Of a stretch of 64,000 nucleotides of DNA, positions 24,131 to 29,907 are shown piece after piece; position 1 is the first letter of the stretch, and each line of letters opens with the position of its first letter. The stretch is from contig CANPZE010000002.1 of the NCBI GenBank assembly GCA_947589315.1, forward strand, positions 1 to 64,000. The letters are read 5' to 3'. The translations under genes were made by a program, and so were the position numbers. Under the pieces are notes generated by a model that saw nothing but the letters and a program-made list of their open reading frames with translations, was not told the origin of the DNA and searched no databases. This DNA comes from an uncultured Lachnospiraceae bacterium (GTDB lineage: Bacteria; Bacillota; Clostridia; Lachnospirales; Lachnospiraceae).

Positions 24131-25111
24131 TCAGTCTCTGCTTCCCAGCAGTCTGGCAATCTCATACTCATATTCATCAATGCCCTTTGTCATCTTAAAC
24201 GCTTCCTCTACATCCACATCATAGAGTTTTCCATCTTTGTAACCGATCAGACGGTTCTTAGAACCTCTGTCGATCAGGTCAATGGCATAGGCTCCCATCA
24301 TAGATGCATAGACGCGGTCTCTTGCAGTCGGGCTTCCACCTCTCTGCAAATGGCCCAGGATGGTAGCCCGGGTCTCTATCCCCGTCTCCTTCTCGATGCG
24401 CTCTGCCAACTCCTCGGAATGGCCTACCCCCTCTGCATTAACAATAACCTGATGGGTCATTCCCTTTTCCCGATTCCTCTTAATGCGGGCGACTAACTGA
24501 TCGATATTATTATTATATTTCTCCGGAAGCAGGATTTCCTCTGCGCCGTTGGCAATACCGCACCAAAGGGCGATATATCCGGCCGAACGCCCCATCACCT
24601 CTACGACACTGCAGCGCTCATGGGAATTAGAGGTCTCGCGAAGGCGGTCGATCGCCTCCATCGCTGTATTTACTGCCGTATCGAATCCTATCGTATAATC
24701 TGTATATGCAATGTCCAGGTCAATCGTGCCCGGAATGCCGATAATATTCACGCCAAAGGTAGAGAGTACCTTTGCCCCGCTGAAAGAGCCGTCTCCACCG
24801 ATCACAATCAGGGATTCGATCCCCAGTTCCTTACAGATTGCCGCTGCCTTTTTCTTCCCTTCAATCTCATAAAACTCTGCGCTTCTGGCTGTAAACAGAA
24901 AAGTCCCTCCATGCTGAAGCTTTTCCGACACATCCTCATACTGCATCAGTTTCATCTCTCTCTTCAGGATCCCATTATAGCCATGGCGTACACCATATAC
25001 TTCATAGCCTCTGGTAATTCCTGTACGAACGACAGCGCGAATGGCAGCGTTCATTCCCGGCGCATCTCCTCCACTTGTCAATACTGCGATCTTTCCTTTA
25101 CTTTCGCTCAT
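24131..25111 (-). CDS. pfkA: 6-phosphofructokinase
   Basis: 'IAVLTSGGDAPGMNAAIRAVVR', 'GGDGSFSGA', 'PGTIDLDIAYTDYTIGFDTA', 'LGHLQRGGSPTARDR'. Confidence 0.96.
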   Translation of the reverse strand: MSESKGKIAVLTSGGDAPGMNAAIRAVVRTGITRGYEVYGVRHGYNGILKREMKLMQYEDVSEKLQHGGTFLFTARSAEFYEIEGKKKAAAICKELGIESLIVIGGDGSFSGAKVLSTFGVNIIGIPGTIDLDIAYTDYTIGFDTAVNTAMEAIDRLRETSNSHERCSVVEVMGRSAGYIALWCGIANGAEEILLPEKYNNNIDQLVARIKRNREKGMTHQVIVNAEGVGHSEELAERIEKETGIETRATILGHLQRGGSPTARDRVYASMMGAYAIDLIDRGSKNRLIGYKDGKLYDVDVEEAFKMTKGIDEYEYEIARLLGSRD

Positions 25112-25412
25112 CTTTTCCTCCATTCCACCGTCCACGACGGCATTAGATCATATCTTATATGGATCCGGTGCAGCAAGGCCAGTCCTATTTCAGCATCTTT
25201 AGCACCTTATCCTAATATGTAAAAACTTTTTAATAAATTAATACACAACGATACTATTTTAGTATGTTAGACCAAGATTTTCAATCATTTTTATTTATTA
25301 TTTGCACTTTTCGCCATAATCACCAATTTTTTTCCCTTCTTTCTGTCTATTTCCACAATTATTATAATTTTGATAAATTAAAAAAAGAGGGTGCTTTTTT
25401 CTGAAATATGTG

Positions 25413-25418
25413 ATATAA
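25413..25418 (+). promoter_or_regulatory. Candidate extended -10 (TGATATAAT) for the PadR-like gene
   Basis: tgatataat about 210 nt upstream of the start codon in an AT-rich intergenic region. Confidence 0.4.
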
Positions 25419-25569
25419 TACTTCACAATAGCGTTGATTAGTAATAATTGCTAACAAATCGACAAAAAAATTGTATATATCCCCACTTGAAATAATAAGT
25501 CAACGGTACGATAATAGTATTAGAGAAAGTATCGCAATATTGTTTGTGGGAGAGAAAGAAGCATATGCG

Positions 25570-25604
25570 AAGGTGTTCATATACTGATCATAAGGAACAC
25601 TTTT
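25570..25604 (+). terminator. Terminator-like hairpin in the 5' leader of the PadR-like gene (possible attenuator)
   Basis: aaGGTGTTC-16 nt-GAACACttttt ending ~22 nt before the ATG. Confidence 0.4.
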
Positions 25605-25626
25605 TCATAAATACAAACGGAAAGGG

Positions 25627-27891
25627 ATGAATGTTATGATGTTCAACACGGGTGATTTAATACTGGATGCAGTAATATTATCTATTGTTGCCCAGAGTCC
25701 AGAGGGTACTTACGGTTACCGGATCACGCAAGAAGTCCGCTCGAAGTTGGATGTACCTGAATCCACATTCTATCCTTTGCTGAAACAGATGGAAATTGAC
25801 GGATATCTTGAAGTATATCATAAAGATATTGGAGGCCGTAGCCGCCGTTTTTACAAGATTACGGACTCTGGCAAAGAGCGGTTGGCATTCTGCCAGCAGA
25901 ATTGGACCAACTATTTGCAAAATGCCAGCGCATTGCTTATGAGTGCTCCTGTAGAAGAGGCCGCAGCGCCTCAGAAGACGCCTGATACGGCGCCTTCCCA
26001 GCAGGAATCCGCTAATGAATATTCTATCGCAATGGACAGCGTGGGACAAATGGAAGATTCCTTTGAATTTTCCATCGGTCAGGATTCTTCCGATGCTTCC
26101 TTAACGGAAGAAGAGGGGCTGTTTGAATTTGACAATACCATGTCAATTCCCGATTCCCCGGTTATTTCGATCGAGGATGCCGCAGCTCCGGCTGACATTG
26201 CAGAGGTACAGCCAGAAGAACCTGTTTACGATGAAGCTTCCGCAGATGAGGCTGATTTCCTTGCAGAAATGGCTTTAGGGGAAGCAGAGGAAGAGATTGC
26301 AACAGAAGCTGAACCGGCAGAGGAGCATGTAGTTTCAGATAAGGTAAGTGAATTGGAAGGGTTACTGTCGCAACTGCGTTCATTTGAATCCCAGATGACA
26401 GCCCACAGTGCATATCAGGAACAGAAAGCACAGAATACGCCTGCTGCACCTGTTGAGGCAGCGGAAATCCACTCTGCTCCGGCAGCAGAGGCAGCTCCCC
26501 AGACCACTTCCACCTATCAGAAATATGCAGAAGTACGGAATCCTGATACGGACGATACGGTGAACAGCCTGGTGGATCTTCTGAAAAATGACGAACCGGC
26601 CAAGAAAACCGGTTTCTTCAGCAGAGTTGTCAAAAGCTCTAATAATGCTAAAGATAAAGTTAAGAATGATAACGCCGAGAACAATACTCCTGTTGCAGCT
26701 AAAACGGAGGAACCCGTTGCAGCTGTGAAAACAGAGGAAAGCGTTGTGGAAAAGGAAAGCGCTGCTGCTGTTGAGACTCCTTCCCCGGCACGCTATGCCG
26801 AGGTACGGAATCCTGATACAGACGATTCCGTAAACAGCCTGGTAGATCTTCTGAAAAATGACGAACCGGCTAAAAAGGCCCGTTTCTTCAAGCCCAGAGC
26901 AAAGAAAGAGACCGTTGCAGCTCCAGTGGAAAAAATCACGGCAGATGCTGTGCCCCAGCCGGTTAAAGCGCCGGAAGAGCCGCAGCAGAAGAAGCCCGAG
27001 ACCATTCAGGCGCATAAGATCCAGTATAAAGAGGTACGGAATCCCGATACCAACGATGCCGTGAACAGTCTGGTAGACCTTCTGAAGGATGACGATACCA
27101 GCGCAAAACCCAAGCTGTTCCGCAAAGCTTCCAAGCCGGCAGCGCCAGTGGAGAAGCTCTCTTCCATCCCTACGCCCGTTGCGGAAGTTAAACCGGCTGA
27201 GAAGGTTAAATCGGAGCCAGTCAAGGCTGCTGCTCCGGAGGCGCCTAAGCGTCCTGCAGAGACTGTAGCTAAGGCTCCTCATATCCACGAAGTAAAAGCT
27301 TCTAATACTGGAGTCGCTGCAGAACAGTCCAGGCCTGCTGCGAAACCTGTGACAGCAAAAGCTCCTGTGGAGCAAAAGCCTGTTTCACTACAGCGCAAGC
27401 CCCAGCCTGTTGCTAAGGCTGCCTCTAATGATGACGGTTCCGTAGACAACTTAGTAGAACTGCTGCGGGGCAATCAGGGTTCCCAGCAAAAGACTTCTAT
27501 GTTTAGCAAAGCAAAGCCTTATGCCGTAAAGAAGTCTCCGATCCCTGCTGTTACCCGTCCATCTACGGAAAACACAGAACAAGAGACTGCGCAGGTTATT
27601 AAGCCTGAAATGAATACAAAATCCTTTGAGGCGAAAGCAGCTTCACCCAATGCCCGTCCAGTAGAGACAAGGGCTACTATTACAAAACCTCTGGAGGCAA
27701 AGGCTATCAGCACCAAACCTGCTACTGCTAAGCCTGCTGAGGCTAAGTCAGTAGAGACTAAGGCAGTGGTTACTCCCAAAGAGGATACCAAGCCCGCTTC
27801 TGCTGAGGCACCCGCATCAGAAGAAATTGACATCAATTCCTTCAAATATCGTCTGATGCAGGCAAATCTACTGCCTAATCAGGACAAATAA
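25627..27891 (+). CDS. PadR-like winged-helix protein with long repeat-containing, low-complexity C-terminal tail
   Basis: N-terminal 'LDAVILSIVAQSPEGTYGYRITQEVRSKLDVPESTFYPLLKQMEIDGYLEV...GGRSRRFYKITDSGKERL'; ~640-aa Ala/Pro/Lys/Glu-rich tail with repeated motif; start may be 25636. Confidence 0.9.
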   Translation: MNVMMFNTGDLILDAVILSIVAQSPEGTYGYRITQEVRSKLDVPESTFYPLLKQMEIDGYLEVYHKDIGGRSRRFYKITDSGKERLAFCQQNWTNYLQNASALLMSAPVEEAAAPQKTPDTAPSQQESANEYSIAMDSVGQMEDSFEFSIGQDSSDASLTEEEGLFEFDNTMSIPDSPVISIEDAAAPADIAEVQPEEPVYDEASADEADFLAEMALGEAEEEIATEAEPAEEHVVSDKVSELEGLLSQLRSFESQMTAHSAYQEQKAQNTPAAPVEAAEIHSAPAAEAAPQTTSTYQKYAEVRNPDTDDTVNSLVDLLKNDEPAKKTGFFSRVVKSSNNAKDKVKNDNAENNTPVAAKTEEPVAAVKTEESVVEKESAAAVETPSPARYAEVRNPDTDDSVNSLVDLLKNDEPAKKARFFKPRAKKETVAAPVEKITADAVPQPVKAPEEPQQKKPETIQAHKIQYKEVRNPDTNDAVNSLVDLLKDDDTSAKPKLFRKASKPAAPVEKLSSIPTPVAEVKPAEKVKSEPVKAAAPEAPKRPAETVAKAPHIHEVKASNTGVAAEQSRPAAKPVTAKAPVEQKPVSLQRKPQPVAKAASNDDGSVDNLVELLRGNQGSQQKTSMFSKAKPYAVKKSPIPAVTRPSTENTEQETAQVIKPEMNTKSFEAKAASPNARPVETRATITKPLEAKAISTKPATAKPAEAKSVETKAVVTPKEDTKPASAEAPASEEIDINSFKYRLMQANLLPNQDK
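26521..27477 (+). repeat. Four coding repeats of (Y)xEVRNPDTDDxVNSLVDLLKNDEPAKK
   Basis: Copies at 26521-26607, 26791-26877, 27022-27108 and a degenerate one at 27427-27477. Confidence 0.92.
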
Positions 27892-27915
27892 CAATCATTA
27901 AAATAATAAATTAAT

Positions 27916-27947
27916 AAGTATCCATTGCCATAAGGCAATGGATACTT
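27916..27947. repeat. 14-bp perfect inverted repeat between the PadR-like and HAAS genes
   Basis: AAGTATCCATTGCC-ATAA-GGCAATGGATACTT. Confidence 0.9.
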
Positions 27948-27995
27948 GCGTAATAAGACAGAATATGCACTGCCGAAATGCAGATGGAGGGAAAA

Positions 27996-28946
27996 ATGAC
28001 AAAATACGAATTTTTAGGTGATTTAAGCCGCCTGATCGCTGATCTTCCACAGGAAGACAGAGATCAGGCTATGGAATATTACGAGGACTATTTTGCTGAT
28101 GCCGGACCCGATAAGGAAAAGGAATTGCTACAGGAATTTGTCTCCCCGGAGTTCATCGCGCAACAGATCAAAGAATCGTCCGCCCAACGGCTTGCCGCGC
28201 AGACACCTGGAGCGAATCAGCATGTCTCTGCAATCTCAGAAGCCACTGAGCATCCGGAAGCTTCTGCCATTCCCTGGACTTCCATTGCTACCGGAGCTGC
28301 TGCCACTCCAGAAGAGAGCGCCCCAAGTACGGCTGCTGTTCCGGAGGCCCCGGCGGCTCCCAGCAAACCCACGCAAATCAAAGATCCCATTCTCTCAGAA
28401 AGAGATATTGAGGCTATGCGGAATCCCATCTTCCAGCAACAGGATGATGACGCCATCAAGGCAGAATTGAAGGCCCAGCAGGATGCAAAGCGTAAAACAC
28501 AGGTCAATATCAAGTCTCTGGATAAAGCGGTATCTGAAGCCAGCAAGCAAAATGCAAAACAGAGAAAGGGAGATTCTTCTGAAAGTGATTATGCCTCCCC
28601 ACTGTATGGAGGACAGAAATCTGGATTGGCCTCTTCCCTGCTGATCCTGACCATCCCCGCTTTTCTGGCCGCCCTGATCCTTCTGGCTGTATTGGCTATA
28701 GGGGTTATCCTGGCAGCTGCCGCAACCTTCCTGGGCAGTATAGGCTGCTTTCTGTTGGCTTTGCTGTGCCTCTTTACGCTGCAGATGCCAAATGTGATGT
28801 TTACCTTTGGCATCTCCTTACTGCTTTTTGTGGGATTGCTGCTCTGTATCCTCCTCGACCGCTATCTTATCACCCGCGCCCTTCCAGGAACATATTACAG
28901 TATGGTGACCCGATTCAAGAATATCCAGGCCAAACTGAAACGATAG
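27996..28946 (+). CDS. HAAS/DUF1700-type membrane protein
   Basis: 'MTKYEFLGDLSRLIADLPQEDRDQAMEYYEDYFADAGPDKEKELLQEFVSPEFIAQQI' plus C-terminal TM helices. Confidence 0.85.
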   Translation: MTKYEFLGDLSRLIADLPQEDRDQAMEYYEDYFADAGPDKEKELLQEFVSPEFIAQQIKESSAQRLAAQTPGANQHVSAISEATEHPEASAIPWTSIATGAAATPEESAPSTAAVPEAPAAPSKPTQIKDPILSERDIEAMRNPIFQQQDDDAIKAELKAQQDAKRKTQVNIKSLDKAVSEASKQNAKQRKGDSSESDYASPLYGGQKSGLASSLLILTIPAFLAALILLAVLAIGVILAAAATFLGSIGCFLLALLCLFTLQMPNVMFTFGISLLLFVGLLLCILLDRYLITRALPGTYYSMVTRFKNIQAKLKR

Positions 28947-28974: not shown

Positions 28975-29907
28975 ATGAAAAAACCAAATATAAAAACGAT
29001 ACTTATTCTTTTGACCATAGCAGGCGCTCTTCTGCTGTGCGGCGGCATTATAACGGGCGGGAGCATCACTTCCATCGCTACCTCCTTTCAGGGGGAACCG
29101 TTAGAAGAAGGGGCTGTCCCTTTGGCAGAAGTCCCCTCCGATCAGATCAAGGCTGTGGAGCTGAATCTGATCCGCAGCGATATCTCCTTTGCCGTTGGCG
29201 ATAACTTTGATGTATCAGGCACCGGCAACTTTGATAGCTACGTTAAGGACGGCATTTTCTATGCAGGAGCCAGTTCCCGCAAATATACATTAAAAGTCCT
29301 GGGCATGAATCTCAGCCTGCCGTCAAAATGGCTGTGCGGCCACGCCAGCTATGTAATTACCCTTCCCAGGAAATTAACCCTGGACAGTATCAAGATCAAT
29401 ACCTCCTTCAGCGATATCACCGGAGATTCGCTAAAGGCCGATACTATTGATATCAATTGTACGCACGGAGACTTTTCCATGGCTCTGCTATCGGCAGGCC
29501 ACCTGAAACTGAATACCACAGGGGGATCTATCTCCCTTGGAGAGCTTTATCTGGAGGAAGAGGGCGCAATATCCGGCTCCCGGGATATCACTCTGGGACC
29601 GGGGCAAAACAATAATGATATGCATAATATCACCGTCAATTCTGACCGGGGAGACCTGCAGTTTACCGGCAAGGTAGAGGGCGATTCTTCATTTACCACC
29701 TCACGGGGCGATATCCATTTAACCCTGCCAGGCACAGAGAAGAATTATACCCTGACTTCTCCTGAAGAAAATCTTACCATCGGCTCTGCTGCCCCGGCAT
29801 CAGACAACCAGACGCCGGAGCATTATGGCAATATCACGTTTAACTGTGGACACGGTGAGGCCGCCGCAGACTTTACGCCCCAAAGCTCTGATCCTAAAAA
29901 GAAATAG
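28975..29907 (+). CDS. DUF4097-type beta-strand-repeat protein
   Basis: N-terminal TM then repeated 'INTSFSDITGDSLKADTIDINCTHGDFSM', 'TSRGDIHLTLPG' pattern. Confidence 0.85.
   Translation: MKKPNIKTILILLTIAGALLLCGGIITGGSITSIATSFQGEPLEEGAVPLAEVPSDQIKAVELNLIRSDISFAVGDNFDVSGTGNFDSYVKDGIFYAGASSRKYTLKVLGMNLSLPSKWLCGHASYVITLPRKLTLDSIKINTSFSDITGDSLKADTIDINCTHGDFSMALLSAGHLKLNTTGGSISLGELYLEEEGAISGSRDITLGPGQNNNDMHNITVNSDRGDLQFTGKVEGDSSFTTSRGDIHLTLPGTEKNYTLTSPEENLTIGSAAPASDNQTPEHYGNITFNCGHGEAAADFTPQSSDPKKK

Follow-up and report, generated by a model that had tools for sequence, protein, structure and literature searches.

From gene context, a dyad of a HAAS membrane protein and a PadR-like winged helix-turn-helix (wHTH) protein has been proposed as a membrane-signal alternative to two-component systems (PMC11237479). 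A padR-DUF1700-DUF4097 operon of Listeria is under strong repression by its own PadR repressor, LltR, which acts mainly on that operon (PMC6624303). The locus described here lies in a 64,000-nucleotide stretch of DNA from an uncultured Lachnospiraceae bacterium, referred to below as the window. It carries, on one strand, genes for a PadR protein, a HAAS membrane protein, and a DUF4097/Toastrack protein, with a phosphofructokinase gene divergent upstream and a SpoU-type methylase gene convergent downstream (Table 1). The gene order and the short-type PadR domain are those of the HAAS-PadR-like wHTH dyad with Toastrack (PMC11237479) and of Listeria lmo0599-lmo0600-lmo0601 (PMC6624303), and the operon is of the PadR-HAAS-DUF4097(Toastrack) type, a known type of envelope-stress module. 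However, the PadR of those systems is a standalone wHTH, whereas here a conserved disordered tail of 650-900 aa is added. In those systems, too, the PadR and HAAS genes overlap or lie a few bases apart, whereas here about 100 bp separate them and contain a perfect, conserved dyad. The HAAS gene is coupled to the PadR gene as in the proposed dyad (PMC11237479), but the PadR partner, with its 649-aa tail, is not a standalone wHTH, and we therefore call the locus a variant of the HAAS-PadR dyad. Our results indicate that a known module has here been elaborated in a way that is real, conserved, and confined to the genus.

Table 1. Features of the long-tailed padR locus, in window coordinates.
Feature	Position	Strand	Basis
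Promoter-like site TTGAAA-17-GATAAT, upstream of padR	25487..25515	+	consensus match only
Long-tailed padR gene	25627..27891	+	single 754-aa ORF, ATG start
PadR winged-helix domain, residues 1-105	25627..25941	+	Pfam, structure matches, AlphaFold2; endpoint of short family members
Acidic spacer, residues 106-252	25942..26382	+	3 Lys/Arg, 40 Asp/Glu
Acidic-aromatic island (FEFSIG...LFEFDN...ISIED), residues 140-181	26044..26169	+	conservation Z=5.6
Helix island DEADFLAEMA...LLSQLRSFES	26239..26427	+	Z=13.2; AlphaFold2 helix, residues 237-267
Repeat R1 with basic-aromatic patch KKTGFFSRVVK	26518..26655	+	repeat profile, patch scan
Repeat R2 with basic-aromatic patch KKARFFKPRAKK	26791..26910	+	repeat profile, patch scan; Z=19.4
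Repeat R3 with basic patch KPKLFRKASK	27022..27147	+	repeat profile; Z=17.8
Degenerate repeat R4 (SNDDGSVDNLVELLRG) with basic patch	27424..27525	+	repeat profile, patch scan
C-terminal Lys/Pro/Ala block (ARPVETRATITKPLEAKAISTKP...; TKPLEAKA-type), residues 660-715	27604..27771	+	84% identity, Z=25
Extreme C-terminal helix FKYRLMQANLL	27826..27876	+	pLDDT 71-84; Z=8.6
Perfect dyad/hairpin between padR and HAAS; arms GTATCCATTGC/GCAATGGATAC	27917..27946	+	shared by the three species
HAAS (DUF1700-type) multi-pass membrane protein, operon partner	27996..28946	+	PF22564, E=6e-10; alternative start 27978
HAAS cytosolic linker island (AMRNPIF...KTQVNIKSL)	28407..28571	+	query search of 250 family genomes
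DUF4097/Toastrack protein, operon partner	28975..29907	+	ORF list, Pfam

The initial annotation, made from the sequence alone, had described a normal PadR winged helix running into a very long Ala/Pro/Lys/Glu-rich tail. This description holds: the open reading frame has exactly the extent given there, and Pfam PadR (PF03551) matches residues 17-87 (E=1.6e-12, 47.7 bits against a cut-off of 27). The best solved relative by both sequence and fold is PDB 3l7w (SMU.1704; residues 7-99, E=1e-17; TM-score 0.83, target length), and the best matches of the domain in a fold search are PadR structures. The PadR fold is common to both proteins, but the listed solved relatives are about 100-145 aa long and tail-less. 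AlphaFold2 models the domain with pLDDT 92-98 and most of the tail below 50, and places a helix at residues 80-105, after the wing, in the position of the PadR C-terminal dimerization helix, through which the protein would dimerize. At 754 aa the protein falls outside the usual PadR range of about 100-180 aa, size being a typical and not a defining feature of the family; the tail alone is about six times as long as a normal PadR. PadR-domain homologues at E<=1e-18 were present in 205 of 397 family genomes. Outside the genus, the open frames among the matches listed are 104-181 aa, except for a PadR-HAAS frame of 421 aa in genome G298; short relatives in the family end near the same point as the PadR domain (102-138 aa). 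A literature search for unusually long PadR proteins found none. The promoter-like site is the top sigma-70-type match of the region and aligns in both other species of the genus.

The tail (Ala 15.6, Glu 11.2, Lys 9.6, Pro 9.4%) is predicted to be disordered by AlphaFold2 and by charge-hydropathy, and its charges are segregated along the chain. Confidence in the AlphaFold2 model, in which three sequences only cover the tail, is moderate for two tail helices and low elsewhere in the tail, including the repeats. Over its first ~150 residues the tail is acidic and nearly free of Lys and Arg, and this spacer sits between the DNA-binding domain and the repeats. Its counterpart in the related genome G001 has 535 residues with 3 Lys/Arg and 88 Asp/Glu. 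Spacer length varies more than threefold among species (147-535 residues), with Lys/Arg near zero throughout, and the change in length arises by expansion of near-identical units. These units are proline/glutamine-rich and recently expanded in G001 and in the third genome, G002 (L032:527-3562; L033:3-2204).

All four motif copies quoted in the initial annotation, one of them degenerate, were recovered (x-EVRNPDTDDxVNSLVDLLKND; profile E=5e-19 to 1e-20 for the three strong, full copies and 1.8e-10 for the degenerate one). R1 and R2 differ at proportions of 0.43 of synonymous and 0.07 of nonsynonymous sites, and R2 and R3 at 0.53 and 0.24, so that the repeats are not merely a recent DNA duplication. 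In 9/9 scanned copies an acidic amphipathic 15-mer (net -3 to -5) directly precedes a basic 18-mer (net +3 to +6), and seven of the nine basic patches contain aromatic residues; the scan pattern missed R3, whose KPKLFRKASK patch is basic too. Because a basic patch adjoins each helix motif, the repeat unit is longer than originally written. Aromatics are lost from the patch in one G001/G002 copy, and the patch may therefore equally serve nucleic acid. The motif had been put forward as an amphipathic docking helix. Its amphipathic character stands (hydrophobic moment, p=0.02-0.04 for R1-R3 by shuffling), but AlphaFold2 does not predict the isolated motif as a helix. The window genome, G000, has one close repeat copy more than G001 and G002, which have NDINAVAAMLNP at the matching place. 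A Pfam DUF384 match on R1 fell below the cut-off and was taken as chance amphipathic similarity.

The genus is represented by three genomes, all of them draft assemblies in many contigs, and 3/3 encode the tail with its repeats and C-terminal block. The G001 orthologue has 1011 aa and that of G002 at least about 900 aa, the latter divided between two contigs (N-terminal 173 aa on one, C-terminal 733 aa on the other) that overlap at their ends by 29 bases within repeated DNA; the break falls among the expanded spacer units. Outside the genus the motif was found neither in 296 genomes of the order nor in a 200-genome family sample, where its sole match, a subtilase-like ORF in G127, is due to chance. 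Within the three genus genomes it matched no other place at E<=10, and a docking code common to other proteins of the genome was rejected on this ground. A profile of the tail searched against 250 family genomes gave nothing outside the genus, and no separate copy of the tail there or in the genus. A scan of GTDB contigs returned two loci with the tail, those of G001 and G002. PadR-domain matches only were found among plasmids, and an anti-phage library gave no match. The wider motif search proposed in the initial annotation thus leads back to this gene in this genus. That annotation had also named two ways in which its reading could fail, homologues lacking the motif and a frame-fused unrelated gene. 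Among the orthologues, 3/3 have the motif, and PadR domain and tail share a single reading frame, though the G002 contig break lies inside the tail.

Between the window and G001, synonymous differences per site are saturated (PadR domain, 0.74; tail islands, 0.81-1.07), with nonsynonymous differences of 0.13-0.33. G001 and G002 are identical at 105/105 positions of the PadR domain and at 345/441 of the tail from FLAEMA onward (synonymous 0.75, saturated; nonsynonymous 0.14). Identity between the window and G001 is 77% in the PadR domain, 84% in the C-terminal block, 60-63% in the repeats, 53% in both the helix island and the C-terminal helix, and 50% in the acidic-aromatic island. These islands stand well above the shuffled background (Z 5-25); the degenerate R4 is weakly conserved (30%, Z 4.1), and linkers R2-R3, R3-R4, and R4-C are at or near background (28-37%, Z 0.2-2.5). 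By these sequence comparisons the tail is under protein-level purifying selection and is built as conserved islands joined by freely varying linkers, which, with the low tail pLDDT, bears out the original picture of short motifs on a flexible tether. The most conserved stretch of the tail, and of the whole protein, is residues 660-715 and not the repeats; it had been missed before. Constraint on this block at the DNA level was rejected, its synonymous sites being saturated. Between G000 and G002, HAAS is identical at 139/299 positions (46%) and DUF4097 at 113/295 (38%). As judged from the alignments, conservation of the best tail islands is close to that of the DNA-binding domain and exceeds that of the operon partners.

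In 43 of 46 short relatives, HAAS is encoded immediately downstream, mostly overlapping padR or a few bases off. The cytosolic linker of the long-tail HAAS proteins is 143-270 aa, against a median of about 55 in other HAAS, and contains an island that, as a query, matched its own genome only among 250 family genomes, with a related stretch in the two sister species. For this reason HAAS is the first candidate partner of the tail. In the GxP motif of HAAS helix 3, Pro is kept and Gly replaced by Val or Ile (EFVSP, DFISP) in 3/3 genomes; the Gly is also absent in 7/46 other HAAS sequences. The membrane-proximal charge of the linker, +2 to +4, is within the range of relatives and uninformative. 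In G298 (L074:2105-3367, minus strand), PadR reads in frame into HAAS, and a single PadR-HAAS ORF in one genome is a hint of contact between the two; in its predicted fold both parts fold well, and with no interface confidence the model is silent on contact. The G298 junction lies at the HAAS start and retains a ribosome-binding-site-like sequence; the ORF is either a natural fusion or the product of a lost stop codon.

With the HAAS-PadR membrane-signal proposal (PMC11237479) and the self-repression by LltR (PMC6624303) as context, a tether best explains this anatomy. Our leading explanation, held tentatively, is that the protein is a diverged PadR repressor of its PadR-HAAS-Toastrack envelope-stress operon, whose disordered tail would be a multivalent tether. 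A PadR dimer would sit on its operator. The tail would reach past the acidic spacer, which may repel DNA and membrane, and several weak motifs would dock on the membrane-anchored HAAS/Toastrack assembly, helped by the basic patches at the inner leaflet. Membrane stress would then alter docking, and the repressor would be pulled off, or let back on, its own operon. Operon context and charge make HAAS/Toastrack or the membrane the most likely docking site. More doubtful is the bolder claim of a one-component repressor that spans from operator to membrane stress sensor on a disordered multivalent tether of 650-900 aa, with DNA binding and membrane docking competing or cooperating in one protein. 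If true, it would link a transcription factor physically to the membrane with neither a transmembrane segment nor a phosphorelay. The published account of how HAAS-PadR modules carry a membrane signal to DNA is a proposal from gene context (PMC11237479). Since this natural variant has long conserved PadR interaction islands and a HAAS island, short peptides would serve to look for the contact.

The tail islands are better conserved than HAAS and DUF4097, as could also be expected if the tail bound some other, well-conserved protein, and RNA polymerase is for this reason the main rival. The Bacillus RNA polymerase delta subunit (RpoE) combines a small folded domain at its N-terminus with an acidic disordered region (PMC7749165), a likeness in how the protein might work and not a claim of homology. 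It is possible, if unlikely, that the motifs, together with the spacer rich in acidic and aromatic residues, bind RNA polymerase and that the regulator acts like delta. The spacer, with only 3 Lys/Arg and 40-88 Asp/Glu over its 147-535 residues, and the acidic-aromatic island suit such a role, and a highly conserved partner would explain why the tail islands outdo the operon partners in conservation. However, the repeat compared with bacterial solved structures matched no known RNA polymerase binder (one match, E=1.1, uninformative), and the description of delta used here holds no counterpart to the repeats, the basic patches or the Lys/Pro block.

Less probable still is a tail directed at nucleic acid, whose basic patches and Lys/Pro block would bind DNA non-specifically and whose acidic parts would bind them in turn, drawing several PadR dimers into bridges or clusters at the operator. 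The order of acidic 15-mer and basic 18-mer in the nine scanned copies, the segregated charges, and a C-terminal block rich in Lys, Pro, and Ala would all fit a condensate of this kind. Nevertheless, at 84% identity the C-terminal block holds exact Ile, Leu, Thr, and Glu residues, beyond what charge alone would need, and operon context indicates the membrane.

We find it improbable that the tail is a low-complexity expansion of little function, such as an entropic bristle or a near-neutral insertion. Recently expanded spacer units in G001 and G002 and linker similarity at background are what such an expansion would produce, but the islands have few nonsynonymous changes despite saturated synonymous sites, and the C-terminal block is conserved above the DNA-binding domain. 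In-frame fusion to an unrelated gene through assembly or sequencing error, which the draft state of the assemblies and the G002 contig break in repeated DNA might suggest, is ruled out for practical purposes by three orthologues with the same architecture at saturated synonymous distance and by the lack of a separate tail copy, either within the genus or among 250 family genomes. The protein is, besides, a clear case in bacteria of island-and-linker evolution within a transcription factor's disordered tail.

The dyad between padR and HAAS has 11-base arms that are unchanged across three species, between diverged flanks. The 66-base stretches containing it fold at -21.6 to -24.4 kcal/mol (z -6.7 to -8.6), and its pattern occurs once in G000 and once in G001. 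The dyad has no T-run on the plus strand and is terminator-like, in a consensus scan, on the minus strand only; Rfam gave no match at 25100-28100. Judged from three sequences, the unchanged arms are as compatible with a protein-binding site, possibly the PadR operator, as with an RNA hairpin. In G001, a transposase-like gene (L032:3906-5405, minus strand) lies between the long-tailed padR and a HAAS gene without its N-terminus, so that the PadR-HAAS pair may be broken there.

G001 and G002 carry two tandem PadR-HAAS-Toastrack-like sets ahead of the same methylase gene, while the window genome has the long-tailed set only. In the second set, PadR is of the normal, short kind (L032:8013-8345 in G001, L033:4876-5187 in G002). 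In an unrooted PadR-domain tree with many weak forks, the long-tailed proteins of the three genomes cluster together on a long branch (100/100), separate from the short PadR of the second sets. The simplest reading is a probable duplication in the ancestor of the genus, with one copy diverging and the short set lost in the window lineage. The second set spans L032:8013-10232 and L033:4876-7044, directly downstream of the first; the window genome lacks it at this position. The short PadR of this set is preceded by AT-rich dyads.
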